DNA of 45,725 nucleotides from a virus. The DNA is taken from the IMG/VR virus record IMGVR_UViG_3300034094_000190, positions 1 to 45,725 of that record; one strand, 5' to 3'. A program made the position numbers and the translations under genes. Shown one piece after another: positions 14,992 through 33,998 of this stretch (position 1 is the stretch's first letter; each line of letters begins with the position of its first letter). Below the pieces are notes generated by a model. It was not told the DNA's origin. It saw only the letters and a program-made list of their open reading frames with translations, and searched no databases.

Positions 14992-16626
14992 ATGCAAAAC
15001 TATAACGCAAAAAAAGAAAACAGTCTATGCTATAAAATCCCCCACTGGGATTATGAGCAATGGATTTCATATATTAACACAACAGAGGAATATCAAACAA
15101 TTGAACAAAAAGTAAAAAATAAAAACGAGATGTTTCCTCAATTTATGGCTGAGGTTTTTCAAAGACTATTACGCTCTGATAATGTTGATTTAGCTTATGA
15201 CACAAAAGAGTCATATCAAGAAAAGGTCGAAAAATGGGTTTTGGATAATCTTAAATATCAAGAGGATTTAGATAGTAGTTTACTTTCTGAAAGTGATTAC
15301 TCTAGTATTTTTGGTAATCGCCCAGAAAAACCTACACAAGTAAAACCAAAAAATGAGATTGGGTGGGCGTTAAAACTTCACCAGGAGTTATCTGAGAGTA
15401 AAGAATTTTCTGAGTTAATGTTTAAAATTAATTCTGAGTTTAGCCACGTTAAAAAATGGATTCTCTCAGGTACAGGTGCTTTAAAATTTGGTGAAGTTTT
15501 GGCTAATCAATTACCAACACCAAATCAAAAATTAAATGACCCTGAAAAAACAAGAGAAAAAATCAGGGAGTTAAAAAAAGAATTAGAGCAAGCGTTAGAT
15601 AGTGATGATAAAAAAGTTAATGAGCTAAAAGAGAAAATTGATGAATTGACAATCAAAGGTAAAAAAGATGTTTTTGATTGTGACCAATACAGCAAAAAAC
15701 TAACACCCAAAGTTGTAGAAAATGCCATAAAATCAGCTTGTGTTGCTGCAACACAAGAGGTTCAGACTATGCAGGATGCAATGGAGTTTCAATCAGGATG
15801 GGGTGCTGGTGAGGGGAGCATCCATGAGTCAGGGGGGGTCACTGAAAAAATCAAAAACGCAAAACGATTAATCGGCTCAAAAAACTTTAAAAAAATTGTT
15901 GAAAAAGCAGGACGTTTAAAGTTTTTAGCTGAAAAAAAACGTAAATCAAAAACACCTGTACAAGCCAAAATTTCAGGTGTTAAGACTGGTAACAATCTAA
16001 ATAATTTGTTGCCATCAGAATATGGTAAATTTACTCACCCTAAAACCCGTAAACTTTTTATCAAAGATTTTTCTGAAAACTCATTGCTTGAGTATGATAA
16101 AAATAATGATGAATCCTCTAAAAAGGGGCCAGTTATTGTTTTAATTGATAATTCTGGTTCTATGGACGGTGAACCTGAAATCTGGAGTAAAGCTGTTGCA
16201 TTAGCTTATTTGTTTATCTGTAAAAAAGATAAACGTGATTTTTATGCAATCCATTTTGATGAACGCACAAGAGCAACCTACGATTTTCCTAAAGGAAAGT
16301 TTGATGATGTAAAAATTGGCAATTTTGTTAATTTCTTTTCTGGTGGTGGCACTGACTGGATGAAACCGCTCAACGATGCTGTTAGTGTTATTGAAAAATC
16401 AAAAATCTACAAAAATGCTGACATCATTCTTATAACCGATGGTGATTGTCGTGTTTCTGATGATTGGCGCAAAACATTTAATCAGAAAAAAAATGATTTA
16501 AAATTCACATCTTACGGTATTTTGTTAGGTCGATACTGTAAAAAAGATTCATTAGATAATTTCATTGATAACGTTATTGTCATCCCTAATCTTTCTGATG
16601 ATAGTGATGTTTTAGAAATATTTTAA
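14992..16626 (+). CDS. VWA (MIDAS) domain protein, CobT/NorD/ViaA-like partner of the ATPase
   Basis: 544 residues. Long helical N-terminal region with a coiled coil at ~185-220 and a basic stretch ~300-325. The C-terminal von Willebrand A domain begins at ~380: IDNSGSMDG gives D386-x-S388-x-S390, GGGTDW gives T454, and LITDGD gives D483, a complete MIDAS metal site. MoxR ATPases and VWA proteins work in pairs to mature or remodel protein complexes. Its closeness to the ATPase makes functional pairing very likely. Confidence 0.9.
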   Translation: MQNYNAKKENSLCYKIPHWDYEQWISYINTTEEYQTIEQKVKNKNEMFPQFMAEVFQRLLRSDNVDLAYDTKESYQEKVEKWVLDNLKYQEDLDSSLLSESDYSSIFGNRPEKPTQVKPKNEIGWALKLHQELSESKEFSELMFKINSEFSHVKKWILSGTGALKFGEVLANQLPTPNQKLNDPEKTREKIRELKKELEQALDSDDKKVNELKEKIDELTIKGKKDVFDCDQYSKKLTPKVVENAIKSACVAATQEVQTMQDAMEFQSGWGAGEGSIHESGGVTEKIKNAKRLIGSKNFKKIVEKAGRLKFLAEKKRKSKTPVQAKISGVKTGNNLNNLLPSEYGKFTHPKTRKLFIKDFSENSLLEYDKNNDESSKKGPVIVLIDNSGSMDGEPEIWSKAVALAYLFICKKDKRDFYAIHFDERTRATYDFPKGKFDDVKIGNFVNFFSGGGTDWMKPLNDAVSVIEKSKIYKNADIILITDGDCRVSDDWRKTFNQKKNDLKFTSYGILLGRYCKKDSLDNFIDNVIVIPNLSDDSDVLEIF

Positions 16627-17359: not shown

Positions 17360-17587
17360 ATGCAAATTCAAAGTAAAAGCGGTGAGAGTTTTAAACAAAT
17401 GCTTGCATATAAAAGACTAAAAAAAGTCTGTGTATATATAGCTCAAAAATTAGATTATGATGATTATGCTGATGAATTTTATCAAAAATCTAAAGGTTAT
17501 TATAATTTGATAAATATGTCAGAAGATGACATGATAAATCATTTTTCTGATGATTTTAAATCTTTTGTAAAAAATTACAACCTTTAA
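17360..17587 (+). CDS. hypothetical protein, 75 aa
   Basis: ATG start with a TAGGTGG ribosome site. Small helical soluble protein with a basic N-terminal half and an acidic, Asp-rich C-terminal half. No family recognised. Confidence 0.65.
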   Translation: MQIQSKSGESFKQMLAYKRLKKVCVYIAQKLDYDDYADEFYQKSKGYYNLINMSEDDMINHFSDDFKSFVKNYNL

Positions 17588-17598
17588 TCTTGATAAAA

Positions 17599-17736
17599 AT
17601 GAAAGCAACACAATGTAAAACTTGTCCTTAAAAAAAAGTGACTAAATGCAAAAACATTTCAAATTATAATTTGGAATATCATCAAAGTTTAGCTAATACC
17701 ATTGCGGGTAAGGATAAAAAATCATGGATGTTTTAG
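17599..17736 (+). pseudogene. Cys-rich small gene interrupted by an in-frame TAA
   Basis: ATG 17599 opens a frame with two Cys two residues apart (QCKTCP). The frame hits TAA at 17629-17631, immediately before an A-run, then stays open for 34 more codons with two further protein-like features (TKCKNISNYNLEYHQSLAN), and stops at 17734-17736, overlapping the next gene. The continuous Cys pattern across the stop suggests one original protein. Point mutation or sequencing error is the simplest explanation. Confidence 0.45.
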
Positions 17737-18113
17737 AAAAAGCAATGCAATGGGCATCGACTAACAAGCCCAATTCAAGTTTGCAAAACAAATCAGCTTT
17801 TGCAAACAGTGTTCAATATTTAGTGACTGGTTATTCTGGTGGGTTTGGGGGGCCGTCAATCCGTGAACATTTAGTAAGTTGGTCTTTAGCAGTGATTAAC
17901 AGTCGGAATGATACGAGTTTAAGATTAACAATGCAATATCCTGATGGTACTATCCCAACCCCAGGTGGTTGGGATTATGAAAAAGCTATTGTTTTTTGTG
18001 AACCATTTTGCTTTGACGATATTACAAACTTTCCTTTAGCTCTACAAATATTAAAAGCTGAACACTGCTTTGATAATGACCCCGATGATGAAAAAGTGTT
18101 GTTGGGAAAGTAG
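17724..18113 (+). CDS. hypothetical protein, 129 aa
   Basis: AAGGATAAAAAATC leader and ATG 17724. Soluble protein with a Gly-rich central segment (TGYSGGFGGPSIREH, ~35-50) and an acidic C terminus. No family recognised. Its stop overlaps the next start (TAGTG). Confidence 0.65.
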   Translation: MDVLEKAMQWASTNKPNSSLQNKSAFANSVQYLVTGYSGGFGGPSIREHLVSWSLAVINSRNDTSLRLTMQYPDGTIPTPGGWDYEKAIVFCEPFCFDDITNFPLALQILKAEHCFDNDPDDEKVLLGK

Positions 18114-18373
18114 TGCAGTGTGATGACGGATGGAAATTAGACCCTGCAAAAAAATTAAACAATAGTTTAATTAATTTTATTTTAAAAACTATCCGTTATC
18201 ACGAAGCAACTTCAAAAGTTTGTATTGGTATGGTTAATGCTTACACAATTTGCGGTAAACCTTTGGCTAAACAAGCTAAGGGGTGTTATTGCAAAAGACA
18301 TCGCCACCAGTCAGAGATTCAAAAACAAAGAGTAAAATTTTCAAAACAAAACAAAGGAGTTAAAAATGATTAA
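18113..18373 (+). CDS. Cys/His-rich small protein, 86 aa
   Basis: GTG start overlapping the upstream TAG (TAGTG). The C-terminal half has several possible zinc ligands: CIGMVNAYTICGKPLAK (~42-58) and GCYCKRHRHQ (~63-72), then a basic tail. It may be a small zinc-binding nucleic-acid protein. No named family. Confidence 0.6.
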   Translation: MQCDDGWKLDPAKKLNNSLINFILKTIRYHEATSKVCIGMVNAYTICGKPLAKQAKGCYCKRHRHQSEIQKQRVKFSKQNKGVKND

Positions 18374-18407
18374 AATAAAAGTGGGTGATAAAATCAAGGT
18401 TAACTAA
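18366..18407 (+). pseudogene. 13-codon gene fragment at a module boundary
   Basis: ATG 18366 overlaps the end of the previous gene and encodes MIKIKVGDKIKVN before a stop. This is the usual beginning of small beta-barrel proteins; compare the start of the 26063 product (KIKIGTSVKW). It breaks off just before a terminator and the GC-richer module, so it is probably a remnant cut by insertion or deletion. Confidence 0.35.
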
Positions 18408-18420
18408 AATATAATTTTTT

Positions 18421-18448
18421 AACTCTCTAAATATTTAGAGAGTTTTTT
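18421..18448. terminator. bidirectional terminator between convergent genes
   Basis: 24-base perfect palindrome at 18421-18444, flanked by six Ts upstream (18415-18420, As on the other strand) and four or more Ts downstream. It serves both the 18113 gene and the minus-strand gene at 18447. Confidence 0.85.
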
Positions 18449-18686
18449 ATTGTTCATCTACATCTTCATTGATTATTTTTTTTATAAATTCTTCAACTGT
18501 CAAACCTTCATCTTCTGCTCTTGATTTGAGCATGGTCACAATTTGGTCATGGTTAGCCTCTATTCTTGCTTGTAAAATATTTCCTGCCAAAGTTGTAGGT
18601 GCTGTTCCCTTGAGAGCAGCCCACTCATCCAATATTTTTTTGTGCCAAGCTGGAATTTTAAGGGTTATTCGGTATCTTTTGTCCAT
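18447..18686 (-). CDS. small DNA-binding protein, ribbon-helix-helix/CopG-like
   Basis: 79 residues beginning MDKRYRITLKIPAWHKKIL, a basic beta-strand plus helix as in ribbon-helix-helix proteins, followed by a helical, acidic C terminus. Such proteins often control copy number or plasmid regulons in cyanobacteria. Divergent from the 18750 gene, so the 64-base gap may hold shared operators. Noticeably higher GC than the left region. Confidence 0.7.
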   Translation of the reverse strand: MDKRYRITLKIPAWHKKILDEWAALKGTAPTTLAGNILQARIEANHDQIVTMLKSRAEDEGLTVEEFIKKIINEDVDEQ

Positions 18687-18749
18687 TGTTGTGTTTTTGT
18701 GCTATCTGACATATAATTAGCATAATCCTAGCATAAAATAAGAAGTGAG

Positions 18750-19034
18750 ATGACTCGCAATCACCCCACCTCTTTGACCCACACACTGCCTAACCTTAGT
18801 AAGAGTGCTAATACAATGATACAGTCAAAAGCTGATGCAGATGTTTTTGTTGATGGTTTTATTCACCCCGCAGAATATATTAAAAAAAATTATCTAACAT
18901 ACCAAGAAGCTGCAGATTTGTTTAATGTCGAACTCTCCACTATCTATCGGTGGTTATCTGGTCAAGTCGTACCCAGTAAAAAGTATTTTAGAGATGCTAC
19001 CAGATACCATAAAGAAGGAAAAAAATCAGCCTAA
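18750..19034 (+). CDS. helix-turn-helix DNA-binding protein, 94 aa
   Basis: An HTH is visible at ~48-73: LTYQEAADLFNVELSTIYRWLSG, the pattern of excisionase/MerR/Xre-type domains, followed by a basic C terminus. N-terminal ~40 residues are Thr/Asn-rich. First gene of the plus-strand membrane module; probably a regulator. A rho-independent terminator follows. Confidence 0.75.
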   Translation: MTRNHPTSLTHTLPNLSKSANTMIQSKADADVFVDGFIHPAEYIKKNYLTYQEAADLFNVELSTIYRWLSGQVVPSKKYFRDATRYHKEGKKSA

Positions 19035-19056
19035 ATATCAAACATATATAAACCTT

Positions 19057-19079
19057 AACCGTTTTAACAACGGTTTTTT
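19057..19079 (+). terminator. rho-independent terminator
   Basis: AACCGTT / AACGGTT stem (19057-19063, 19069-19075) with loop TTAAC and a T-run. It isolates the 18750 gene. Confidence 0.85.
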
Positions 19080-19167
19080 AATGTCTAAAATTATTACTGC
19101 ATTTGCAGTTAAGATGCAGTTTTACTCATATAGCAAAAGAGTTATATTGTATTCAGTTAAACGAAAT

Positions 19168-19189
19168 GTTTCGAGAAATTTCTCGAAAC
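19168..19189. promoter_or_regulatory. 22-base perfect palindrome, likely operator
   Basis: A self-complementary sequence centred at 19178/19179 with the core TTTCGAGAAATTTCTCGAAA lies 44 bases before the HTH gene at 19233 and 21 bases after a TATATT box at 19143. No T-run follows, so an operator for a dimeric regulator (18750 or 19233 product) is more likely than a terminator. Confidence 0.6.
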
Positions 19190-19232
19190 AAAAATAAAAA
19201 CAAAGCGAAAATCAAACGAGTACAAAACAAAT

Positions 19233-19493
19233 ATGAGGAGCGCAAACACAGAACAGATATTGTTTTTTACCAGAGAGCAAGTTGCCAGTCAGTTAGGGAT
19301 TACGGTTGAATATCTCCGTCTCCTAGCAGGTGAATTAAGAAATGCTCTTGACCCACAAGAATTTGATTTCCGTCCCTATGATGGGCAGATATCCTGGGAT
19401 TCGGTTCAAAAAATCATCAGCTATCGAGAGTTAGCAAATCAAAAAACTCGCAAGACGGCATTAGAACAAATCAGAAAAAAAGGACTTGAATAA
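19233..19493 (+). CDS. helix-turn-helix regulator, 86 aa
   Basis: Residues ~12-35 (FTREQVASQLGITVEYLRLLAGEL) form a MerR/excisionase-like HTH, followed by YDGQISWDSVQKII and a basic C terminus. ATG 19233 follows an A-rich leader. Its stop overlaps the next start (TAATG), so the two proteins are co-translated. Confidence 0.75.
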   Translation: MRSANTEQILFFTREQVASQLGITVEYLRLLAGELRNALDPQEFDFRPYDGQISWDSVQKIISYRELANQKTRKTALEQIRKKGLE

Positions 19494-20044
19494 TGACAGC
19501 ACAACAAACAAATGAAACAAATTATGATTTGGATGAGATTTCTAAATCATTAAAAATTGCACCTAGTCGAGTAAGATTAATCATTTCAACATTGGTAGAA
19601 AAGTTTAATCTGGATGCTACAAAAACACCGACAAATGGTTTGGTAGCAATGCTTTCTGCTATTGTTGGAATCCAAGAAACACATACGCTTTCTGTCACTC
19701 AAGCTGTTGAAAAATACGTCACAGACCTTCAACAAAACCAAAAACAATCAACAGGAAAATCAAAGCACGCTGCCGGAACAATGGCAGAAAGTGTTGACAA
19801 TCTTGCCACCAATCTTGCTAAACAAATGGCTCCAAAGGTTGTTGAGTTGACAGTAAAAAAACTTGAGGATGAAGTTATCAAAGAGTTGTCAAAAGGTTTT
19901 GAAATGTTCACCATCAATGATTGCTTTAACCAACTTGGAATCATTATTGATGCTGAAATTCGAGAGGTTGAAAAAACTGATAACTTTCAAATCTCTGGAG
20001 GAGAAAACATTCTCGGTTACTTTGCATTGCCGGAGGGCAAATAA
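19493..20044 (+). CDS. hypothetical helical protein, 183 aa, HTH-like N terminus
   Basis: Start overlaps the previous stop. Residues ~10-40 (YDLDEISKSLKIAPSRVRLI) again look like a DNA-binding helix pair. The rest is helical with an amphipathic stretch at ~105-140, possibly for self-association or membrane contact. Together with the preceding gene it may form a partition- or replication-type DNA-binding pair, but no family is recognised. Confidence 0.65.
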   Translation: MTAQQTNETNYDLDEISKSLKIAPSRVRLIISTLVEKFNLDATKTPTNGLVAMLSAIVGIQETHTLSVTQAVEKYVTDLQQNQKQSTGKSKHAAGTMAESVDNLATNLAKQMAPKVVELTVKKLEDEVIKELSKGFEMFTINDCFNQLGIIIDAEIREVEKTDNFQISGGENILGYFALPEGK

Positions 20045-20124
20045 ACCAATTAAAAAACAATATCCCGAAGTAGTTTTTCTTATGCACGGAGGGATTTGTT
20101 AAGCAAAAAAACCAGGTATAAATT

Positions 20125-20319
20125 ATGGTGTCATCTATCGTAAAAACAGCAAACAACATCAAGAAATCAATGATAAATACAATCATACTCTTGATAATTG
20201 GAACAGGTATCGGTGGAGGTTTAACCCTCTGGATGATTCAAGCAAATGCTAACGGGATTTGCAGTCTACTCTCTGCAAAAAACCAGTTTATTAACATAGT
20301 GCAAAAAAACTCAAAATGA
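20125..20319 (+). CDS. small membrane protein, 64 aa
   Basis: One transmembrane segment at ~18-38 (INTIILLIIGTGIGGGLTLW) with Gly-zipper character (GTGIGGG), short basic N terminus, about 25 residues after the membrane. The stop overlaps the next start (ATGA). First of the series of small membrane proteins. Confidence 0.65.
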   Translation: MVSSIVKTANNIKKSMINTIILLIIGTGIGGGLTLWMIQANANGICSLLSAKNQFINIVQKNSK

Positions 20320-20705
20320 TGGATACAATTTTTTTCCCATTGGTTCACGATAACCTGTCATGTGACACATTGGTTCCTCCAAAAAACATGGCACAACTTG
20401 GCACAAGCCTTGTCACGTGCCTGGTCACATCCATGACAGGTCAAGCTATGGCATCTGAATTACCCCAAGGGTATGCCTACCAAGATGCGTATTTGCAAAC
20501 AGAAATTATGCCACAAAGTCCATGCCAAAATCGGAAAACTGTAACCCAAGAATACGAGTACACATTACCTCAAGAAACTCAAGAATATGAGCCACATCAG
20601 TATCAACAGAATCCAGATGCAAAACGCGGATACGGTGATTCAGGATTATCGGGTTACAGATTCAACATTGGAAGTCAAAACACCATTATCATTGACTTAT
20701 TCTGA
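20316..20705 (+). CDS. possible secreted Gln/Tyr-rich protein, 129 aa
   Basis: ATGA overlap with the upstream gene. After 24 residues an internal Met starts a signal-like segment (LGTSLVTCLVTSMTGQAMAS) with an AMA-type cleavage site; the remainder is rich in Gln, Tyr, Glu and Pro and looks unstructured. If the internal Met (ATG 20388) is used, this would be an ordinary short signal peptide. The last 119 bases overlap the next gene in another frame, which casts some doubt on one of the two. Confidence 0.5.
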   Translation: MMDTIFFPLVHDNLSCDTLVPPKNMAQLGTSLVTCLVTSMTGQAMASELPQGYAYQDAYLQTEIMPQSPCQNRKTVTQEYEYTLPQETQEYEPHQYQQNPDAKRGYGDSGLSGYRFNIGSQNTIIIDLF

Positions 20706-20970
20706 ACTTGAAGAAATGCGGAACAAAATCTTAGCCAAAGAGAAATGTTCTGATGTTGACCTTGAAAAACTAGCATTGATTAACGAAAAACTAGGAGATT
20801 TACCGATGAAGGACAAGTTTAAAAGTATCAATTATTTTGCTTTAGGTCTGGGTGTTGTAGCGGGTTTGCTATTATCAATAATCATGAAACCTCAGCAAAT
20901 GCAACCCAACACATTTTCCGTCCCTGCTAACAGTGGAGCGCCAGTAATCTACAATATCGACAACAATTAG
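20587..20970 (+). CDS. membrane protein, 127 aa, single C-terminal anchor
   Basis: Internal ATG 20617 may be the true start, which would shorten the overlap with the previous gene. Residues ~35-80 form a helical, charged domain (YSELEEMRNKILAKEK ...); one transmembrane segment at ~88-108 (ALGLGVVAGLLLSIIMKP), then a short Gln/Pro-rich tail. Unknown family. The second half is the more convincing coding part. Confidence 0.6.
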   Translation: MSHISINRIQMQNADTVIQDYRVTDSTLEVKTPLSLTYSELEEMRNKILAKEKCSDVDLEKLALINEKLGDLPMKDKFKSINYFALGLGVVAGLLLSIIMKPQQMQPNTFSVPANSGAPVIYNIDNN

Positions 20971-20972
20971 CA

Positions 20973-21113
20973 ATGCACCAAATTAAACAATTAGAAAGTT
21001 TAATACCGTTGATGATTTTAGGTATTTTCCTAATAATCCTACCCGTTATTTGTGCGGTTATTAGTCCATCAACTCCCGATTATAAACCGATTATTTCAAA
21101 GCCCGAAAATTGA
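20973..21113 (+). CDS. small membrane protein, 46 aa
   Basis: ATG 20973 lies two bases after the previous stop. A single hydrophobic segment at ~11-31 (IPLMILGIFLIILPVICAVI) followed by a Pro-rich tail. Fits the tightly packed series of small membrane proteins. Confidence 0.55.
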   Translation: MHQIKQLESLIPLMILGIFLIILPVICAVISPSTPDYKPIISKPEN

Positions 21114-21128
21114 AACAAGGAAAAAATC

Positions 21129-21371
21129 ATGAGTAAGACAAAAATTGAAGTCAACTATTATGAAGCACCTGGTCAAAACTACCAGCAACAACCTTCTAAT
21201 AATTGCCAACAGCAACCCAATCAAAACGTGACATCAGATTGGTCTTTAAATGTAATGCTTGTTCCTCTAGGTTTTCTGTTTTTGCTGTTTTTCTGGCCTA
21301 TTCTCTTGGGAGGCACAAGACAGATTAATTATGTGCCACCAAGTAATCCCGTAATTATCAATAACCGATAG
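21129..21371 (+). CDS. small membrane protein with Gln-rich N terminus, 80 aa
   Basis: AAGGAAAAAATC ribosome site before ATG 21129. Residues 15-36 are Gln/Asn/Pro-rich (a YQQQPS-type run); a transmembrane segment at ~41-62 (MLVPLGFLFLLFFWPILL) and a short tail with VPPSNP. The next gene starts on the base after its stop. Confidence 0.65.
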   Translation: MSKTKIEVNYYEAPGQNYQQQPSNNCQQQPNQNVTSDWSLNVMLVPLGFLFLLFFWPILLGGTRQINYVPPSNPVIINNR

Positions 21372-21536
21372 ATGGATAGCATTTATACAAAAAAGGAAAT
21401 GATGTTTTGGATAGTAGTTTGGTTCTTAACTTATTTCCTTTGCTTACAAAGAGGGGGTGCAGATATTACCGATAATCGCACCCCAGAAAATACCGGAGCC
21501 TTTTGTCGAGCTTATGTCCAGGGGGATTTATGGTAA
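21372..21536 (+). CDS. small membrane protein, 54 aa
   Basis: Starts directly after the previous stop. One transmembrane segment at ~11-26 (MFWIVVWFLTYFLCLQ), then a polar tail with two acidic residues and a Cys. The stop is overlapped by the next start (ATGGTAA at 21530-21536). Short, but position and overlap support it. Confidence 0.5.
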   Translation: MDSIYTKKEMMFWIVVWFLTYFLCLQRGGADITDNRTPENTGAFCRAYVQGDLW

Positions 21537-21667
21537 TCGGCAAAAGATTTATTGTACAGTGGATGATTTTTGGAATCTTTATGTACCTGGCAATCCCCCC
21601 GCTAGTCGTGATTCACAACAATATTGTTTGCTACAGGTATTTTGAACAAATCAGAGCTAACAAATAA
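21530..21667 (+). CDS. small membrane protein, 45 aa
   Basis: ATG 21530 overlaps the last two codons of the upstream gene. A hydrophobic segment at ~8-30 (IVQWMIFGIFMYLAIPPLVV), then a short basic tail. Chosen over an alternative frame (21457-21645) that lacks a membrane segment and a ribosome site. Confidence 0.5.
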   Translation: MVIGKRFIVQWMIFGIFMYLAIPPLVVIHNNIVCYRYFEQIRANK

Positions 21668-21685
21668 AAAAAACAAAGGAGACAA

Positions 21686-21844
21686 ATGGATTTTTTTAAA
21701 AACAAACAAAATTTAATTTGGGGCGGTATCGCGTTAGTCGCATTGGCTTTTTCCCTCTACTCTGGAAAATTAAGTTTACCGGGTCAGCATCAATCACAGT
21801 CACCGCAACATCAAACACCAGGCTCAATAAATTTAGACTGGTAA
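21686..21844 (+). CDS. small membrane protein with Gln/Pro/His-rich tail, 52 aa
   Basis: Strong ribosome site (AAAGGAGA) seven bases before ATG 21686. Transmembrane segment at ~9-26 (NLIWGGIALVALAFSLYSG), then a GQHQSQSPQHQTPGS-type flexible tail. Similar topology to the 21129 product in reverse order. Next gene follows after 4 bases. Confidence 0.6.
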   Translation: MDFFKNKQNLIWGGIALVALAFSLYSGKLSLPGQHQSQSPQHQTPGSINLDW

Positions 21845-21848
21845 TCTC

Positions 21849-22403
21849 ATGCTCAAAGATTTTAAATGGGCAGCTACCTATCTGGGAATAATGTGGGCTT
21901 TAGAAATGTTTTTCCCAATAGGTGACTATTTTGGAATCAGACCAGGTGTAGAAGGAATAGGACTGATGGGTATAATTGCTGCACCCTTTTTGCATGGCAA
22001 TCCAGAGCATCTAATCGGAAATACTATCGGGTTTATCCCATTAGCAACCCTGACCATTCTCAAAGCACCTGGACAGTTTAATAAAAACTTCTGGATAATC
22101 TCAGTCCTAACTGGTTTAGGTGTTTGGGTGATGGGTCAACCTGGTTCAACTCATATTGGGGCAAGCGGTACAATCTATGGTTTTTTTGGTTTCTGTTTGT
22201 TATCAGCAATCTTTAGGTCAGACTTCCCAAACATAGTTTGCGCTGTAATCACTTGGGTCATGTTTCAAAAACTCATGGGCGGAATGTCGCCCGCACTGGC
22301 AAGTCAAGGTATTAGTTGGGAAGGTCATTTACTCGGTTTTGTTGCTGGTGTAGTTGCGGGGTATTTAGATGCAAACAGTCAGAGAAAATTGGGGACAAAC
22401 TAA
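21849..22403 (+). CDS. rhomboid family intramembrane serine protease
   Basis: 184 residues, six or so hydrophobic helices. HGNPEHLIGNTIGF at ~49-62 is the conserved H-x(4)-H-x(3)-N helix; GASGTIYGF at 104-112 carries the catalytic Ser106; SWEGHLLGFVAGVVAGY at ~156-172 carries the catalytic His160. The Ser/His dyad is complete. Rhomboids cleave transmembrane segments of substrates. Neighbouring single-pass proteins of the same operon are obvious candidate substrates (inference). Confidence 0.92.
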   Translation: MLKDFKWAATYLGIMWALEMFFPIGDYFGIRPGVEGIGLMGIIAAPFLHGNPEHLIGNTIGFIPLATLTILKAPGQFNKNFWIISVLTGLGVWVMGQPGSTHIGASGTIYGFFGFCLLSAIFRSDFPNIVCAVITWVMFQKLMGGMSPALASQGISWEGHLLGFVAGVVAGYLDANSQRKLGTN

Positions 22404-22670
22404 ATGTATTTACAACAATCTGAAACCCAGACCTCCCCCCAGATAACAGGCGTGATGGTATTCAATTGGTCAATGGGGTTGTTATCTTTGGTTTTAGTTG
22501 GTTTGATAGCTTTTGAAGTTGTCAGATTGACAAATAAACCAACTGAGGAGTTTCAAAAGTTTGTAGCCGTTGCCAATCTTTCAGGATATGAAAAATGTCT
22601 AAAAGCTAAAGGTGGTGACGGTTGCAAAATAAAATTAATTACAGAATGGGAGAAAATTAATGGCAAGTAA
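22404..22670 (+). CDS. membrane protein, 88 aa, single anchor
   Basis: ATG directly follows the rhomboid stop. N-terminal ~17 polar residues, one transmembrane segment at ~20-43 (MGLLSLVLVGLIAFEVV), then a soluble domain with two Cys (YEKCLKAKGGDGCKIKL) that could form a disulfide on the outer side. The 3' end overlaps the next gene by 11 bases. Confidence 0.65.
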   Translation: MYLQQSETQTSPQITGVMVFNWSMGLLSLVLVGLIAFEVVRLTNKPTEEFQKFVAVANLSGYEKCLKAKGGDGCKIKLITEWEKINGK

Positions 22671-23175
22671 ACTTGAAAACTTACGCAATAAATTTTCTGT
22701 AAGTGGGATTATCAAAGAAAAAGGGACGGGCGCAAACTTTGGTAAAGTTATGACACCCACTGGTAAAGGTGACATCAATCCATACAATCGGGAACGTTCT
22801 TATAATGGAACTGATGAATTTGATGCACATTTTACTATCCCTGACCGTGTAAACCCTTCAAAAAATGAAGTTGAGGGTGCTAAAGCTATTGCTAAAAATG
22901 CAACAGAAGCGGCTATTAATAAATCTGAAATTGTTGAATCACAATTAAAGGTTGACAAAGCTCGAACTGATTGGTATGAAGCCGACCAAAAACTTGTGAG
23001 AGGTATTTCTGAAGGTTCCTTAAAACGTTTTGGTGAAAAACTAGAAACACAAGAAAAACTTGATGCACAAGCACCCAAATATATGCAAATGGTTGGACAT
23101 TTTGCTAACGAAAATATGGGTGCTGTAAATGTGATGCAGCAACTTGACAAAATTGAAACTGGAATGAAATTGTAA
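22660..23175 (+). CDS. soluble coiled-coil protein, 171 aa
   Basis: Overlaps the previous gene. Helical from ~70 onward with long charged heptads (ATEAAINKSEIVESQLKVDK ...), N-terminal ~65 residues Gly/Asn-rich and probably flexible. Only clearly soluble protein in the middle of the membrane series; may link membrane parts or the ATPase. No family recognised. Confidence 0.7.
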   Translation: MASKLENLRNKFSVSGIIKEKGTGANFGKVMTPTGKGDINPYNRERSYNGTDEFDAHFTIPDRVNPSKNEVEGAKAIAKNATEAAINKSEIVESQLKVDKARTDWYEADQKLVRGISEGSLKRFGEKLETQEKLDAQAPKYMQMVGHFANENMGAVNVMQQLDKIETGMKL

Positions 23176-23212
23176 ATTTATTTGGGGGTGAAATATTCCC
23201 CCAATCAAATCA

Positions 23213-23458
23213 ATGAAATGGACTAAAAGCAATATTCTTGATTATGAGTCAGATAGAGTAAAAGTTGAATATATTCATGACTATTCTGACAGGAGACATT
23301 TATGGCATAAGCAAGTTATAAAGATTGATGATGTTATCGTCAATACTGTTAAAGAATACGAGGATGATGATTGGTCTTCTTATGGTAATTCTTTTGGTGA
23401 TAGCATACCTAGTCATAGAGGACAATGGGACAACTGGGTAGCAAGTTTAGAGGATTAA
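23213..23458 (+). CDS. hypothetical acidic protein, 81 aa
   Basis: A small beta-rich protein with many Asp, Tyr and Trp. Codon use returns here to the AT-rich style of the rest of the window. No family recognised. The next gene starts three bases after its stop. Confidence 0.6.
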   Translation: MKWTKSNILDYESDRVKVEYIHDYSDRRHLWHKQVIKIDDVIVNTVKEYEDDDWSSYGNSFGDSIPSHRGQWDNWVASLED

Positions 23459-23461
23459 GTT

Positions 23462-23815
23462 ATGAAACTATGGAGGGCTAAAAGATTTTCAATTTTTGGA
23501 ACAGGTTTATCTTGTTCTTTTTTACTATCACATTTTGCACTGTCTTATCCTGAAGCTAGAGTTTTATTAATTTGTCTTTATCTTGGTTTGATTGTTGGAA
23601 GTATTGCAATTTATTTATTTTCGGATAATCAACAATCAATAGAATCTACAGAGTTAATATTTTGTGCGATATCTTTATTGATTGGTGTTTTTTACGCTTT
23701 AGGTATTGGACAATCTTGGATTGTTTTAAGATTATTATTATGGATTTTATTATTAATAGTTACAGTGTCATGTTGGATATTTTTTTCACTACCACAAACT
23801 GAAGGCAATGAATGA
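23462..23815 (+). CDS. four-helix membrane protein, 117 aa
   Basis: About four hydrophobic segments: ~10-28, ~33-52, ~64-82 and ~86-110; short loops; no signal peptide beyond the first helix. Overlaps the ATPase gene by 8 bases (ATGAATGA), so it is likely made with it and may be its membrane partner. No family recognised. Confidence 0.7.
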   Translation: MKLWRAKRFSIFGTGLSCSFLLSHFALSYPEARVLLICLYLGLIVGSIAIYLFSDNQQSIESTELIFCAISLLIGVFYALGIGQSWIVLRLLLWILLLIVTVSCWIFFSLPQTEGNE

Positions 23816-25841
23816 AACACCTGAACATTTAAAAAATCCACATTTATCAGCATGGTCAATCGGATTAACTATTGCTGGCTGTAGCCTTGCATTATTTTCA
23901 CCTTTAGTGATAAATAAAAATCCACAGTTAGGGATAGTTGGTACTGCCTCTGGTGCTGTATTGTCTATTGCAGGATGGGTAATGGGTAGCCAATCAGAAA
24001 AATCTATAAAATTACAAGCAAAATTAGAGGAAAAAACTGAGGAGATTTTTTTGCGTCGTTTGGGTATGGAGTATGAATTAGAAAAAATAAAAGATGGTGT
24101 TTATTTGAATGAAAGTCAGCAAATGATTTTACAACAAAAAAATTATAATCAAATAACAACAAAATCACAAAATGATAATCAAATACAATCACAAAAAATT
24201 ATTCAAAACAATGTAGAGGATATTGAGTATAATAATGATGGTAGTAATATAGTTTTGCTTGATAGACAGTATAATAATAATAATGATGATGATGATGTTG
24301 CTATAACAACTCAAGTAGTCAGTGATGTTTTTTATGAAAATATTGAAGATGATACTGTAAAAGATTTACAATTAAATAATGTTAAATCTATTGATAAAAT
24401 CATAAAAGATTTGGCTATTTGTAGGACTTCTATATTGCTATGTTCGCAACCTGGAACGGGTAAAACAACATTTACTCTTGCTTGGTTGTGGGAAACTGTT
24501 GCTAATAATCCAACAGTCAAATTTTATATTATTGGTCAAAAACGAGATAATTGGTTAGGTTTGAGTAATATTGATGGTATTTTGACCGTAGTTAGTACCG
24601 ATATTGATGAATTGGTAGAAAAAGTTTCAAAAGTTTGTGAAATTTTAAAAACTCGTTGCCAAACACCTGAAGAAGATAGGGATTTTGAAAATAAACCTGT
24701 TAGATTAATTTTTGATGACTATACTGCCACATATAGTGCTATTAGTTCTGTAGGGGGAAAAACATTAAAAGAATTTATAGCTAATATTTCTTTTTTAGTC
24801 ACAGTCGGACGTGAATTTAATGTTACTCTGTACATATCTGCACACTCTTTTAATCTAAAACAATTAGGTTTAGAAGGTGCTGATATTAGAAATTGTTTAG
24901 TTTTAATGGGACTTGGGTTTAAATCTTATACTGAAAAAGGTGAGTCAGGAGGATTTGATTCTGTTGATAGTATTCTCAATAATCAGTATATTGTCAAACC
25001 TGGTAATGATACTAGGGATACTCTTATGCGTGAGTATAAGAAATTAAAAATTATATCAATTGAAAAAAGTAAACAGTTATTATTTTGTACTTTAGGGGGA
25101 GCATCATTAAAATTGTTGAGTGATTTGAGATGGGTCAGAAATGAAAGTTTGTTGCCTAAAGTTGAAACTGAAAAAAATGATTCTGTTATTAAATCAAAAG
25201 TACCAAAAAAAATAGAGATTGATTTAAAAAAAAATGATATCCCTGATAGACTGCAATCGGAAAACCCTTTGGATTGTAGCACTTGGCTATCAGTAGATTA
25301 TCCTAATGGTTTACAAAGAATGCCACAACATCAAGCAGGGGTTTATGCTGTATTTATTGAAGGGTATCAAAACCCTTTGTATATTGGCGAGTCTAAAGAC
25401 CTGTGGCGACGTTGGAATAATACGGGTAGTTGGGAACATCACGTCAAAAAACATCTTAAAGATATTGGTGATTTAAAGGTAAACATTGCATTTTACATCA
25501 CAAAGGGATGGGATGACCAAAAACGTTTATCTCTTGAATCTGAATTACAGATAAAATATCAGACACCTTGGAATGGCACAAGTGATAAAACATTACCAGA
25601 TAAAACTCTTTCACCATCGGCACAAGCTGTATTTGATTATATTAAAGATAAATTTACAGTTACAGGTAAACCCATATCAACTCGTGATTGTTATAGAAAT
25701 TCACCACTCAGAACTAAGTTTGGTGTAAATGCTGAAAATACTGAGTTGATATTTGATGAACTTCAATCTTTTGGACTTGGTAAAAAAATTGTTGAAGAAA
25801 TTAACGGTTTTATAAGTGTTAAATTTATGCCAAATTTGTAG
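23808..25841 (+). CDS. membrane-anchored ATPase fused to a GIY-YIG nuclease and winged helix
   Basis: 677 residues. Two transmembrane segments at ~15-34 and ~40-60, a coiled coil and a low-complexity Asn/Asp/Gln linker (~65-165), then a P-loop ATPase: SQPGTGKTT at 213-221 and Walker B RLIFDDYT at ~299-306. Residues 510-590 are a GIY-YIG nuclease: GVYAVF, PLYIGESKDLWRRW (YIG 525-527, catalytic Arg candidates 534/535) and a later Glu in LSLESELQIKY. The last ~75 residues look like a winged helix. The topology recalls DNA-pumping ATPases of the FtsK/VirD4 type, but the similarity is not close, and the nuclease fusion is unusual. Confidence 0.8.
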   Translation: MNETPEHLKNPHLSAWSIGLTIAGCSLALFSPLVINKNPQLGIVGTASGAVLSIAGWVMGSQSEKSIKLQAKLEEKTEEIFLRRLGMEYELEKIKDGVYLNESQQMILQQKNYNQITTKSQNDNQIQSQKIIQNNVEDIEYNNDGSNIVLLDRQYNNNNDDDDVAITTQVVSDVFYENIEDDTVKDLQLNNVKSIDKIIKDLAICRTSILLCSQPGTGKTTFTLAWLWETVANNPTVKFYIIGQKRDNWLGLSNIDGILTVVSTDIDELVEKVSKVCEILKTRCQTPEEDRDFENKPVRLIFDDYTATYSAISSVGGKTLKEFIANISFLVTVGREFNVTLYISAHSFNLKQLGLEGADIRNCLVLMGLGFKSYTEKGESGGFDSVDSILNNQYIVKPGNDTRDTLMREYKKLKIISIEKSKQLLFCTLGGASLKLLSDLRWVRNESLLPKVETEKNDSVIKSKVPKKIEIDLKKNDIPDRLQSENPLDCSTWLSVDYPNGLQRMPQHQAGVYAVFIEGYQNPLYIGESKDLWRRWNNTGSWEHHVKKHLKDIGDLKVNIAFYITKGWDDQKRLSLESELQIKYQTPWNGTSDKTLPDKTLSPSAQAVFDYIKDKFTVTGKPISTRDCYRNSPLRTKFGVNAENTELIFDELQSFGLGKKIVEEINGFISVKFMPNL

Positions 25842-25871
25842 TAAAATAGTTTTATACCAATAAGGTAAATT

Positions 25872-26045
25872 ATGAAAAAAATACTGATTTTTTTGATGAT
25901 AGTTTTTTCTACATATTTATATTCAATTAAATTTTTATCGGATTTAATTTTATATTCTGAAAAAACAAAAACTGAGGATGCCCCTGTTAAACCGGGTGAC
26001 GGTAGACGAGATAATAACTCGATTGTTAAAACAAAAAACATTTAA
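25872..26045 (+). CDS. small exported or membrane-anchored protein, 57 aa
   Basis: ATG 25872 after AAGGTAAATT. Basic N terminus then a hydrophobic stretch at ~4-27 (ILIFLMIVFSTYLYSI), acting as signal or anchor. The tail contains a DAPVKPGDGRRDNN segment. Ends 17 bases before the ATA-start ORF. Confidence 0.55.
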   Translation: MKKILIFLMIVFSTYLYSIKFLSDLILYSEKTKTEDAPVKPGDGRRDNNSIVKTKNI

Positions 26046-26062
26046 AAAAGGATTAATTAAAA

Positions 26063-26338
26063 ATAGAAACTAAAGAATTAGATTGGAAAATTAAAATAGG
26101 TACATCTGTAAAATGGATAACTCATGCCCCTGGCGGACACAAAGAAACAGTTGGAACTGTTATTGATTATTGTCCTGCTAATATTCAATTATCATCTTTG
26201 GTTGGTTTTGATGTTCCTAAAACTATAAAAGATGTATCTATGTTTGATAGATATGTGGTTGAAATAAAAAAAGCCAAAAAATCTACATCCACAAAATTAA
26301 AATTTCCTTTGAAATCAGTTTTAGAAAAATGTAATTAA
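26063..26338 (+). CDS. small beta-barrel-like protein, 91 aa, apparent ATA start
   Basis: A ribosome site AAAAAAGGA (26045-26052) is followed 10 bases later by ATA-GAA-ACT. The frame is fully protein-like: IKIGTSVKW ... HAPGGHKETVGTVIDY, a pattern of small phage/cyanobacterial barrel proteins. No ATG, GTG or TTG exists in frame before residue ~43 (TTG), and a stop precedes at 26054-26056. The only ATG comes even later. Stop-to-next-start distance is 2 bases, so it belongs to the RusA operon. Either ATA initiates or the start codon is mutated. Confidence 0.6.
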   Translation: METKELDWKIKIGTSVKWITHAPGGHKETVGTVIDYCPANIQLSSLVGFDVPKTIKDVSMFDRYVVEIKKAKKSTSTKLKFPLKSVLEKCN

Positions 26339-26340
26339 TA

Positions 26341-26790
26341 ATGCAAGCAGAAGAAGCTGTTAAAATCATTAAATCTATCCCTGAAGGTGTTGAAAGATTT
26401 AGGTTTGATATATGCTCCGATATGACTCTTAATCGAGTCACAAGGATGCACCACTACGTTATAGCAAAGCATAAAAAAGATTTTACATTGTTGGCACAGC
26501 TTGACTGTCAAAACAGACATAAGTTTAATGGTAAAGTTTGGATTGAAATATTTTATTTTCTCAAGAAAAATATTGACCCTATTGATAACTTGCCAGCAGC
26601 ATTAAAACCTATTCTTGATGGTATGGTAAAAGCTGGTGTAATCAAAGGTGATGACATTGGAATAATCCAATCACCTTTAGTTTCATGGCATATCAAAATC
26701 GCCCCAAAAAAAAATCAAAAGATTTGTGATTTTGTGGTAATATTAGTGTCAGAAAAACCGATTTTTAAAGGTTGTTACATAAACATTTAG
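26341..26790 (+). CDS. rusA: RusA-like Holliday junction resolvase
   Basis: 149 residues. The typical RusA core is visible: IEIFYFLKK, then DPIDNLPAALKPILDGMVKAGVIKGDDI (about residues 79-106), with the Asp residues that bind metal in the family. RusA cuts four-way junctions and resolves replication or recombination intermediates; common in phages. Context: replication genes on both sides. Confidence 0.85.
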   Translation: MQAEEAVKIIKSIPEGVERFRFDICSDMTLNRVTRMHHYVIAKHKKDFTLLAQLDCQNRHKFNGKVWIEIFYFLKKNIDPIDNLPAALKPILDGMVKAGVIKGDDIGIIQSPLVSWHIKIAPKKNQKICDFVVILVSEKPIFKGCYINI

Positions 26791-26796
26791 GAGCAA

Positions 26797-26979
26797 ATGA
26801 TAAAAACATCAAACAATAAAAAAACAAAAACGATTAAAGATATTGTGATTGAAGTTTTTCTTTTTGGTTATAAATATCTGCAAAATACACCTTTTATGTG
26901 TTTTTTTGATTTATTTTTAAATAAAATAAAAGAGTTAAATTTAGGAGATAATAGATTTATCTTTTTAAAAAATGGATAA
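26797..26979 (+). CDS. hypothetical protein, 60 aa
   Basis: ATG 26797 with GGAGCAA ribosome site. Basic N terminus, aromatic-rich centre (FLFGYKYL ... FMCFFDLFL). No family recognised. Its stop overlaps the start of the next small ORF by 8 bases. Confidence 0.5.
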   Translation: MIKTSNNKKTKTIKDIVIEVFLFGYKYLQNTPFMCFFDLFLNKIKELNLGDNRFIFLKNG

Positions 26980-27127
26980 AAATGTTTTAATTGATAAAAT
27001 CATGATAGGAATAAGAGAGATTGATAAACATATATCAGCTATTAAAAATTTTATGATATCATCAATCTTTAAAATTGAATATAATATTACTTTAAAATTG
27101 AATATAATATTAAACGAGTTAGTATGA
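26972..27127 (+). CDS. small ORF, 51 aa, with internal tandem repeat
   Basis: ATG 26972 overlaps the previous gene. Helical, Ile/Lys-rich. Its last third is coded by a 23-bp tandem repeat (27067-27112), so the second copy is read in another frame and the C terminus may be recent. Ends in an ATGA overlap with the next ORF. Confidence 0.45.
   Translation: MDKNVLIDKIMIGIREIDKHISAIKNFMISSIFKIEYNITLKLNIILNELV
27067..27112 (+). repeat. 23-bp perfect tandem duplication
   Basis: Two adjacent copies (27067-27089 and 27090-27112) of a unit containing CTTTAAAATTG and AATATAATATTA. Each copy contains a TATAAT box, so the duplication may also double a promoter element for the following genes. Confidence 0.85.
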
Positions 27128-27216
27128 TTGAAAATCAACTACTACTTGAAAACCTGAATGGTCAAAAAATGGCTTATATTGATTGCCTCAAAAAGATTAA
27201 AGAATTAAAGGATTGA
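27124..27216 (+). CDS. small ORF, 30 aa
   Basis: Starts in an ATGA overlap with the previous stop and ends 3 bases before the next gene. Short amphipathic helix with Leu, Lys and Gln. Its tight placement is the main support. Confidence 0.45.
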   Translation: MIENQLLLENLNGQKMAYIDCLKKIKELKD

Positions 27217-27219
27217 ATA

Positions 27220-27432
27220 ATGATAATTGATAAAACAAATAGATTAGATATTTTGTTAAACTCAAAACGGTTTGTTAGTGATGAGCAACCGGGTATTACA
27301 CTAATAATTCATAATGACTCCCGTGACGATTCAACTATAATAATTGAAAACCCTGTCAATTTTTCGTCATTGGAAGATATTGAAAGATTTGAAATTGCAA
27401 TAAATGAATTAAAAACTTTAGTTTTGGAGTAA
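27220..27432 (+). CDS. hypothetical protein, 70 aa
   Basis: AAAGGATTGAATA leader, ATG 27220. Compact mixed alpha/beta protein with acidic C terminus. No family recognised. Followed after 7 bases by the 27440 gene. Confidence 0.6.
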   Translation: MIIDKTNRLDILLNSKRFVSDEQPGITLIIHNDSRDDSTIIIENPVNFSSLEDIERFEIAINELKTLVLE

Positions 27433-27439
27433 AAATCAA

Positions 27440-28117
27440 ATGAAAAATGAATTGTTAAAAATATTATTAGATTTAAACATCCAAAAAAATAGTTTATCTT
27501 GGATGTTTATGGAAAAATCAAAACAAATTGATATTAACGATTATATCAAAAATAAAAAAGATAAAATACCTAATGTTCCAGGTATTTATGTTATTAGAAC
27601 AAACACTAATATAGTATTTGTTTCTTTTTGTGGAACAACACTGCGAGAAAAGATAGGTAGACAAGGAAAAATGAGAAAAAAAATAGAACTATTTAACAGT
27701 GATGATGATTATGATTTAAGTATTCACTATAATACTTTTGAGCCTGATAGTGTTATCGGTAAAGTTTTTTCTTACCATGCAGAAAAAGAAACTAGAAATT
27801 ATCACGAACAGGTTTTGATATCTGACTTTAAACCTTTTATGATTCCTAATGATATAGTTAGAGTAAATATTTTAAATATTTATGAAGAGAGGTTTTATAG
27901 GGAGGTTTTGCTAGAAAAAAATAATCCAGAGGATTTTTCTATTTTTTTATTAAAAGAGATATTGATAAGTGATGCTTTGATTGAAAAAAGGTTTTACGAA
28001 AAAGATAAATTGTTTCAAAAAAATAGAGTAGATAAATCTTTTGTCGATGATAGCAATAGGGTAATATTTGAATATCTAAAAAATAATGGCTTTTATGATA
28101 AAAAATCTAAACTTTAA
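27440..28117 (+). CDS. hypothetical protein with a possible GIY-YIG-like domain, 225 aa
   Basis: Around residues 45-70 the sequence reads VPGIYVIRTN ... FVSFCGTTLREKIGRQG, resembling GIY...(Y)IG...R of GIY-YIG nucleases but with the YIG part changed to SFCG. The rest is helical and charged. If it belongs to the superfamily it is divergent and may be inactive. Converges with the Xre gene and overlaps it by 11 bases. Confidence 0.4.
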   Translation: MKNELLKILLDLNIQKNSLSWMFMEKSKQIDINDYIKNKKDKIPNVPGIYVIRTNTNIVFVSFCGTTLREKIGRQGKMRKKIELFNSDDDYDLSIHYNTFEPDSVIGKVFSYHAEKETRNYHEQVLISDFKPFMIPNDIVRVNILNIYEERFYREVLLEKNNPEDFSIFLLKEILISDALIEKRFYEKDKLFQKNRVDKSFVDDSNRVIFEYLKNNGFYDKKSKL

Positions 28118-31934: not shown

Positions 31935-33998
31935 ATGAAAACAAAACAAAAAGCTAAAGTTATAGTCCCATTGTCTGATGATAAATATAATGTCATCCAA
32001 AACTTTTTAGTTTTAGATAAAAATGAAAATAGTTATAAATTAATACATGAGGATTTATTAGGTATTGATAATGTTGAACAATGGGTAGATAAGTCAAAGG
32101 TTATAATTCAACCTATTGATGGTGATGTCAAAGCTGATGATAATAGAAAAGTGTGTAAGATTGTTGATGGTAATGTGATTGTTGATGAAAATAAATTAAA
32201 AATATTTGACAGAACATCAAAACTAATCCCTGATTGGAAGCCAACAAAAACATTAAAACCGTTTAAAGATGTTTATAAAACATATATTGATATTGAAACA
32301 TTAGGACTTGACCCTGAAAAAGATAGGATTATTTATATTGGTTTAAAATGTTCTATCACTGGTAAATATTTTTTAATAACTGATAAAGATGAAAAAAAAT
32401 TATTAGAAAAATTTGTTAAATGGTTAAAAAATAATAAACCTGAAATTTTATCAGGTTACAACTCTCTACAATTTGATATTCCATTTATAATCAAAAGGTG
32501 TGAAATATTGGGTGTAAAGCAACCATTTAAAACTTCTGATTATCGGATTACAGTAAAAACAGCGCAAGTCTTTGGTGAAGCAATATCTTTTCAATCATGT
32601 TACCTATATGGTGTTGACTTGATTGACATTTACCATCAAGTATTGATTTTAGATAATGTTAAACGAGTTTTAACTTCACACACTCTTAAACAATCAGTAA
32701 TCCAAATGGGGTTACGAAAAGAGCAAAGATTAGAATTAGATTACAAAGAGATTCAGGAGTGTTGGAAAAATGGTGATTTAGAGAAAATTGAGGAGTATTT
32801 AAAATATGATTTAGATGATACTGAGTTATTGACTGATTTCTTATTACCTTCTGTTTACTATCAGCAATTGTTTGTACCGGGTATGAATGTCCAAAAACTT
32901 GCCACAACTGGAAATGGTACTAAATGGCAGGCTGTGTTAGAAGATTTATATCCTGAGATTGGTAAAGGTGTAATTGAATCAGACCCTAAATGTAAATATG
33001 TTGGTGGTTATACCGTAGGTTATTCAGGGTTACATCGCAACACTTCAAAAGTTGACGTTAGCTCCCTCTACCCTTCAATAATGTTAGTTTATGGCATAAC
33101 ATCATATAAAGATAAAGATTATAAATTACTAGGAATAATTAAATATTTACTAGAGGAAAGATTGAGATTAAAAGGTATTGCAAAAACCGACCCTGAAGCA
33201 AATCAAATGCAAGGAGCATTAAAAGTATTACTCAACAGTGCCTATGGTTCACTGTCTACAAATGGTATAGCTTTTAATGATTATATTGCTGCTGCGTTGG
33301 TAACAGCTTATGGTAGAAGGATTGCAAAATTGATGGTTGATTGTATTGAAAAAGAGGATGGTAAAATTGTTGAAGTTGATACTGACGGTGTGATGTTTAG
33401 TTGTTTGTCAGGTAAAAATCAAAAAATATTTGAATTTGTGCGTGACAATTTACCTACGGGTATTGGAATGGAACATGAGTGGCAAGCAAAAGCATTGTAC
33501 ATTCCATCTGTCGATAATGATTTGGAAATAGGACTTCGTAAAAATTATATAATTTTTCATCAAAACGGAAAAGTTAAAGCTACGGGTAAATTTAGAAAAA
33601 GAGATATTTGTAAATTAGAACAAAACTTTGTGATTGATTATCTAAAAAATTATCTTGAATCTCCAGATGATGCTGAAAAATATTTTAAAGATAATTTAGA
33701 TTTGATAATCTCTGGTAATTATGACATTGAAAAATTGACAATTAGAAGAAAAATAAGAAAACGTGAGATTGAACTTTTAAAATTGGGTAAAACCGGAGAT
33801 GTTATCAGTTTTTATGAGACTGATAAGGGTAAGGGTGTTGAGGGAGAGTATTCAATATCTTACTATCAAGATAAGATTAAAGAGTTGCGAAATGAAATTT
33901 TGACTGTTATTGACACTGATTTATTGTCAAAAAGTCAATCAATCGTTGATGATTCATTTATCGATAACAACACTGTCCAATTATCTTTATTTTCATAA
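31935..33998 (+). CDS. polB: family B DNA polymerase with 3'-5' exonuclease
   Basis: 687 residues. Exonuclease motifs: Exo I YIDIET (D119, E121), Exo II GYNSLQFD (N176, D181), Exo III YLKYDLDDTELL (Y288, D292). Polymerase motifs: A KVDVSSLYPSIM (D374), B KVLLNSAYGSL (K430-Y437), C VDTDGVM (D482, D484). All catalytic residues are present. Shorter than most cellular PolB. It is the likely replicative enzyme; a family B polymerase differs from the family A enzymes of many cyanophages. Confidence 0.95.
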   Translation: MKTKQKAKVIVPLSDDKYNVIQNFLVLDKNENSYKLIHEDLLGIDNVEQWVDKSKVIIQPIDGDVKADDNRKVCKIVDGNVIVDENKLKIFDRTSKLIPDWKPTKTLKPFKDVYKTYIDIETLGLDPEKDRIIYIGLKCSITGKYFLITDKDEKKLLEKFVKWLKNNKPEILSGYNSLQFDIPFIIKRCEILGVKQPFKTSDYRITVKTAQVFGEAISFQSCYLYGVDLIDIYHQVLILDNVKRVLTSHTLKQSVIQMGLRKEQRLELDYKEIQECWKNGDLEKIEEYLKYDLDDTELLTDFLLPSVYYQQLFVPGMNVQKLATTGNGTKWQAVLEDLYPEIGKGVIESDPKCKYVGGYTVGYSGLHRNTSKVDVSSLYPSIMLVYGITSYKDKDYKLLGIIKYLLEERLRLKGIAKTDPEANQMQGALKVLLNSAYGSLSTNGIAFNDYIAAALVTAYGRRIAKLMVDCIEKEDGKIVEVDTDGVMFSCLSGKNQKIFEFVRDNLPTGIGMEHEWQAKALYIPSVDNDLEIGLRKNYIIFHQNGKVKATGKFRKRDICKLEQNFVIDYLKNYLESPDDAEKYFKDNLDLIISGNYDIEKLTIRRKIRKREIELLKLGKTGDVISFYETDKGKGVEGEYSISYYQDKIKELRNEILTVIDTDLLSKSQSIVDDSFIDNNTVQLSLFS

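Follow-up and report, generated by a model that had tools for sequence, protein, structure and literature searches.

Architecture and integrity of the fusion protein

A gene encoding a 677-aa fusion of a membrane anchor, an FtsK/TraB-like ATPase, a GIY-YIG nuclease and a winged helix (23808..25841, plus strand) was revealed in a 45.7-kb IMG/VR contig of a cyanobacterial virus, the whole 45,725-nucleotide stretch of which is hereafter called the window. The best reading of this protein, to which we give a probability of roughly 0.4, is a relaxase-free inner-membrane DNA pump of the FtsK/TraB/TcpA type, equipped with a site-directed nuclease of its own and serving DNA transfer or spread. The pump class and the intactness of the nuclease are supported by the present data; the direction, substrate and purpose of the pump are inferred.

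The reading frame is intact, with no internal stops, and the domain make-up of the ORF is far above chance expectation. The preliminary description had placed two membrane helices, both Walker motifs, a GIY-YIG domain and a winged-helix end in this ORF, and each of them was recovered. Hydropathy peaks at residues 17–35 and 41–59 predict two transmembrane (TM) helices (23856..23984, plus strand, as are all parts of the fusion). They are followed by the P-loop ATPase core at residues 183–447 (24354..25148), with Walker A QPGTGKTT at residues 214–221 (24447..24470) and Walker B LIFDD at residues 300–304 (24705..24719). Residues G216, K219 and T220 of the former and D303 of the latter are invariant, even in comparison with relatives possessing a different core, and D304 is kept across the plasmid relatives. 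The nuclease domain with a complete catalytic set occupies approximately residues 507–592 (25326..25583), and the winged helix approximately residues 603–675 (25614..25832). The dN/dS values among the diverged relatives were 0.04–0.11 for the core, 0.04–0.07 for the GIY-YIG domain and 0.06–0.07 for the winged helix, which indicates strong purifying selection on the functional domains. The structure of the full-length protein, predicted from a shallow alignment, had a pLDDT of 44 with an uninterpretable core, and the winged helix was its sole match in Foldseek. The separately modeled C-terminal part reached a mean pLDDT of 75.

Motor class of the ATPase core

The single sequence of the window's own core scored under the cut-off with the Pfam FtsK model (E 0.09), and its putative family membership rests on profiles of relatives. 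Two core types are distinguished below, that of the window and a sister (L003) type; they are remote homologues (hhalign E 2e-13). Both could be aligned over the core with Tra of the Streptomyces plasmid pIJ101 (E 2e-6 and 9e-4), and the window-type profile aligned with the ‘FtsK’ proteins of A-1(L)-type phages over 171 columns (E 1.3e-6). In general, the core profiles A4 (sister type) and A5 matched pIJ101 Tra and the phage FtsK-like proteins over 139–190 columns, except for A4 with A-1(L), where the alignment covered just 35–42 columns. Among the families compared, core-wide alignment (at least 139 columns) was obtained only with pIJ101 Tra and the ‘FtsK’ proteins of Anabaena/Nostoc phages, while VirD4 (TrwB), VirB4, VirB11, DnaB, MoxR and TrwC aligned over 17–54 columns around the P-loop only. 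Shuffled controls for these comparisons scored 25 or less. As the E-values come from single comparisons, in which some P-loop-only matches went down to 1e-5, the alignment length is a stronger argument for the motor class than the E-values, and it is on the core-wide lengths that we assign the putative pump to the FtsK/TraB/TcpA group of the pump superfamily. Searches against PDB gave mainly generic P-loop matches, e.g., dynein, for the window-type core, and for the sister-type profile A4 the TcpA coupling protein (6o1w, E 3e-4) followed by FtsK (E 0.2).

A VirD4-type coupling protein was ruled out in spite of the naming of the plasmid relatives, as TrwB aligned over 19–38 columns. The enzyme was not assigned to TraB proper either, since clt-like repeats were not found: no array of overrepresented 9–13-mers was present within 17500–27500, although the record is a fragment and the site may lie elsewhere in the element. 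Neither the window nor nine related records contained relaxases of the two families searched, PF03432 and TrwC (PF08751). The earlier proposal that DNA could be cut and moved at the membrane in the absence of a relaxase is supported in part: the motor class, the intact nuclease and the lack of these relaxases agree with it, and a repeat array resembling the TraB target was not found.

The GIY-YIG nuclease and the winged helix

The Pfam model PF01541 matched ten of ten relatives slightly under its curated cut-off (E 5e-4 to 4e-3). In the fold search, the nuclease that the C-terminal model resembled most was R.Eco29kI (3mx4/3nic; Foldseek probability 0.89–0.99, E about 0.01–0.08). In all six sequences compared, the motif residues G511-V-Y513 and Y525-I-G527 (the latter being the YIG noted previously) are conserved, with the exception of I526, which is Val in two of them, and so are R534/R535, H544/H545, E577/E579 and N589. 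The alignment proposed earlier as a check on the catalytic Tyr, Arg and Glu therefore found all of them kept. Considering this unchanged catalytic set together with the low dN/dS, the fused nuclease is not degenerate and is apparently intact. The winged helix was predicted with a pLDDT of 85–92 and gave VIA Z-scores of 8.5–10 against many winged helices. Residues 559–677 of the fusion share 51% identity with the C-terminal end of the GIY-YIG protein that Planktothrix plasmids encode separately.

Outside the fusion gene, a 225-aa ORF (27440–28117) contains PGIYVI near its start and, further on, E and N spaced as in GIY-YIG proteins. Its second motif is degenerate (VFVSFCG), and it is possibly a decayed GIY-YIG protein.

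Operon and genome setting

The fusion gene is the last one in a module located at 18447–25841. The upstream edge of the module is formed by a divergent ribbon-helix-helix-like regulator (18447..18686, minus strand; a weak match to RHH_4), which is kept in 13 related contigs. All the following genes lie on the plus strand: two small HTH-like regulators (18750..19493), a conserved 183-aa protein (19493..20044), three small genes for proteins of 64, 129 and 127 aa, two of which have one TM helix (20125..20970), and an 80-aa single-TM protein (21129..21371) with the C-terminus NPVIINNR, resembled, as judged by eye, by ends found in the Annamia and Oscillatoria operons. Further downstream, a 184-aa membrane protein of the rhomboid family (21849..22403; PF01694, E 6e-16), also kept in related contigs, is followed by an 88-aa single-TM protein predicted by hydropathy (22404..22670) and a 171-aa protein lacking TM helices (22660..23175). 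The position of the latter corresponds to that of the non-membrane genes preceding the ATPase in plasmids and phages; homology with A1L_48 of phage A-1(L) was not detected, and the comparison concerns the layout only. Between it and the fusion are encoded a small 81-aa protein, assigned to the operon by position (23213..23458), and a 117-aa protein with at least three predicted TM helices (23462..23815), which is 69–84% identical in the related contigs and the gene of which overlaps that of the fusion by 8 bases.

Within 18000–23000, the G+C content of the module is 0.33–0.39 versus approximately 0.25–0.31 in much of the flanks, which suggests a different recent history. Its recent insertion into the phage is less likely, as a version of the module precedes PolB in A-1(L) too. 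PolB of the window (31935–33998), downstream of the module, is 44–47% identical to PolB of the Anabaena/Nostoc phages A-1(L), N-1 and YongM. Neither the plasmid replication protein CyRepA1 nor T4SS-like machinery of the kind used by TcpA was found in the window, and the proteins scanned included no recognisable virion protein. Other genes of the window include a MoxR-like ATPase adjoining a VWA protein (phrog_24053; 13714–16626), a tandem duplication of a C5 cytosine methyltransferase gene, the two closely related copies following a ParB-like protein (37846–39929), and a minus-strand gene, the product of which contains a long TPEP repeat and has a SAP-like C-terminal end (42245–42685).

Distribution of the pump and of its nuclease

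Relatives of the fusion are encoded on about 27 IMG/VR contigs, and the module is conserved in about 20, the remaining genes of which differ from those of the window. A fused copy was not found in phage, plasmid and GTDB collections; scans of GTDB contigs with the full protein or its C-terminus, the reach of which is restricted by pattern seeding, gave no relative. Two large contigs carry entirely different sets of virion genes on a common backbone: one of 98 kb (G001, L047–L051) encodes CyRepA1 along with a portal and a major head protein, and another of 85 kb (G002, L052–L056) possesses terminase, tape measure and head genes, CyRepA1 being not found in it. This suggests that they are cyanobacterial phages or phage-plasmids sharing a plasmid-like backbone.

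An operon of the same order, i.e., regulators, small membrane proteins, a TM-less protein, a multi-TM protein and a TM-anchored ATPase, is present on plasmids of Nostoc, Tolypothrix, Oscillatoria, Leptolyngbya, Planktothrix, Pseudanabaena and Annamia, in some of which CyRepA1 is annotated. Operon-bearing CyRepA1 plasmids include ones typed as non-mobilizable, the smallest being of 12.5 kb. Several plasmid ATPases end in a winged-helix-like or zinc-ribbon-like C-terminus. The plasmids retrieved by the ATPase searches belong mostly to filamentous genera, and CyRepA1 plasmids occur also in Synechococcus, Synechocystis, Acaryochloris and Geminocystis; a bias of the operon to filamentous hosts is suggestive only, similarity cut-offs being confounded with phylogeny. 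ATPase relatives were also detected in the cultured A-1(L)-type phages, seven of seven. In A-1(L) itself the genes upstream are similarly ordered, and the TM-anchored FtsK-like ATPase closes an operon of small membrane proteins (L025, 20975–26714). This phage operon is apparently undescribed in the literature examined.

The fused nuclease is absent from these plasmid operons and A-1(L)-type phages. In three Planktothrix plasmids, a separate GIY-YIG gene directly follows that of the ATPase, and its product, of a different subtype (T5orf172/MUG113), is joined to a related winged helix. Hence the combination of pump, GIY-YIG and winged helix exists in two forms, fused in the window and with a separate nuclease gene in Planktothrix. 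The architecture had been called unusual at the outset. The fusion is indeed neither common nor described in the literature searched (no description of it or of the operon was found in open-access sources), but the pump itself is widespread in a nuclease-free form. As such pumps are numerous in plasmids and occur in seven cultured phages, the novelty resides in the fusion of the nuclease and in the modularity.

GIY-YIG nucleases commonly occur as mobile domains, and that of the fusion could be a recent selfish or incidental insertion, similar to a homing nuclease, into an ordinary pump. The lack of GIY-YIG in most relatives, several of which, as judged by eye, have a winged-helix-like end right after the core, would agree with this. 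Nevertheless, we consider such an origin quite improbable, given the low dN/dS and the active site invariant over many contigs, as well as the pairing of two GIY-YIG subtypes with a related winged helix beside the same pump family.

Exchange of ATPase cores between conserved ends

Comparison of the N-terminal part, the core and the C-terminal part of related proteins gave sharply uneven identities: 72/21/72% for the window and L003, 93/25/85% for two plasmids of one Annamia strain, 89/35/24% for the Nostoc proteins L026 and L073, and 26/91/88% for L073 and L080. The L003 and Planktothrix cores are 75% identical and their ends are unrelated; in two Oscillatoria plasmids, the N-terminal parts and cores are 74 and 29% identical, respectively, and the C-terminal parts have no similarity. 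Exchange of the core region (24354–25148 in the window) between conserved ends concerns the window and its relatives L003, L026, L068, L073, L074 and L079. Judging from these alignments, the family is modular, its parts having been exchanged as cassettes in several apparently separate cases. Recombination was also seen inside the fusion gene. The assumption that the cores mark plasmid incompatibility groups is contradicted by co-resident Planktothrix and Annamia plasmids with 87–97% similar proteins. The repeated swapping of cores, with the ends remaining fixed, stands out as a pattern of its own that needs explanation.

Core swaps and intragenic recombination resemble diversifying specificity, as might be expected if the membrane pump-nuclease gripped and cut DNA of competing phages or plasmids on entry. 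The presence of the module on phage or phage-plasmid genomes with differing virion genes and the match of the Planktothrix GIY-YIG protein to the candidate defence model PDC-S57 (E 2e-7) are consistent with such an exclusion role. It seems unlikely to us, however, since the PADLOC matches of the window protein are weak (best E 8e-4), the nuclease is missing in most relatives, and the operon neighbors replication genes rather than a defence island.

Proposed function

For the transfer reading, the following sequence of events can be proposed. The two N-terminal helices would hold the pump beside the small membrane proteins of the operon, as its gene order implies; the ATPase core, by analogy with its family, would form a ring that pumps double-stranded DNA. 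A site on the DNA of the element would be picked out by the winged helix, and the GIY-YIG domain, having an intact active site, may nick or cut at this site, after which the motor would drive the DNA across the membrane or septum into a neighboring cell. Both the cutting and the moving of the element's DNA could thereby be performed by the fusion at the membrane. The parallels for such relaxase-free spread would be Streptomyces TraB acting with Spd proteins and Thermus TdtA acting with NurA. In favor of this reading, linkage of nuclease and pump is seen in two forms, by fusion here and by gene adjacency in Planktothrix, and the small membrane proteins of the operon may be likened to the Spd arrangement (PMC12857230, PMC5365140).

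Against it stand the lack of a clt-like repeat array near the module and the weak FtsK match of the window's own core. In addition, the operon is found on conjugative plasmids with, according to typing, an MPF_T machinery of their own and beside ParM genes, which suggests maintenance, i.e., a septal pump that segregates or resolves copies of the extrachromosomal replicon in the manner of FtsK, with the nuclease resolving multimers or trapped DNA. In Nostoc plasmids the operon follows ParM partition genes, once together with ParG, and it belongs to the backbone, lying near CyRepA1 and, in A-1(L) and the window, upstream of PolB. At the same time, the ATPase is kept in all seven A-1(L)-type phages, and two of these, A-1 and N-1, being reported as lytic, should not need septal partition; several operon-bearing plasmids have separate ParA genes; and a nuclease is not obviously required by a partition motor. 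With these arguments weighed, a maintenance role appears somewhat unlikely.

If the pump-nuclease does move the DNA of its own element, a single protein would stand in for both the relaxase and the coupling protein of conjugation, and this could explain the spread of cyanobacterial plasmids typed as non-mobilizable. In a broader version, which is doubtful, phages, phage-plasmids and CyRepA1 plasmids of cyanobacteria would share a hitherto undescribed relaxase-free transfer machine for cell-to-cell spread, perhaps along a filament, with GIY-YIG opening the DNA in place of the relaxase. The idea is directly testable, as both culturable Anabaena PCC 7120 phages and sequenced plasmids carry the operon.

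Comparison with known systems

Pumps of this class, GIY-YIG nucleases and partnerships of pumps with nucleases are all known already; what is new, judging from the literature searched, is the fusion of a membrane pump with GIY-YIG and a winged helix, combined with cassette-swapped cores.

To our knowledge, TraB has no nuclease. Tra of pIJ101, which is of the TraB type, shares with the fusion the membrane-anchored P-loop pump alignable over the core, and the TraB/Spd system likewise has a DNA-binding (helix-turn-helix) domain at the C-terminus, an operon with small membrane proteins and no relaxase. TraB and Spd proteins provide for double-stranded DNA transfer in the absence of other T4SS parts and for plasmid spread over septa (PMC12857230, PMC5365140). 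TraB binds 8-bp clt repeats (PMC12857230), none of which were found near the fusion module, and the gene order of the TraB/Spd operon differs from ours, the likeness to Spd being one of arrangement. Clostridial TcpA of pCW3, to which the sister core was closest in PDB, operates together with a T4SS-like machine (PMC5365140).

TdtA of Thermus transjugation is a membrane-associated ATPase of the FtsK-HerA family, and DNA donation falls by 3–5 orders of magnitude when its associated nucleases, NurA and Tth111II, are missing (PMC5365140). Like the fusion, it is a membrane ATPase partnered with nucleases, but it is HerA-like, its nucleases are encoded by separate genes and belong to other families, and a DNA-binding domain was not detected in it.

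The ‘DNA translocase FtsK’ (A1L_45) of the Anabaena phages A-1(L), N-1, YongM and Elbi has two TM helices, a related core, a similar operon layout and the same position upstream of PolB, but lacks GIY-YIG and ends in a short, probably helical segment. In Planktothrix, the ATPase BBD57097, with a core 79% identical to the sister type and an N-terminus different from that of the fusion, and the GIY-YIG protein BBD57098, with a winged helix related to that of the fusion, are two proteins. R.Eco29kI, in turn, is a stand-alone GIY-YIG restriction endonuclease, which is neither membrane-bound nor linked to a motor. The known plasmid pumps do without such a fusion to a nuclease and a DNA-reading domain.
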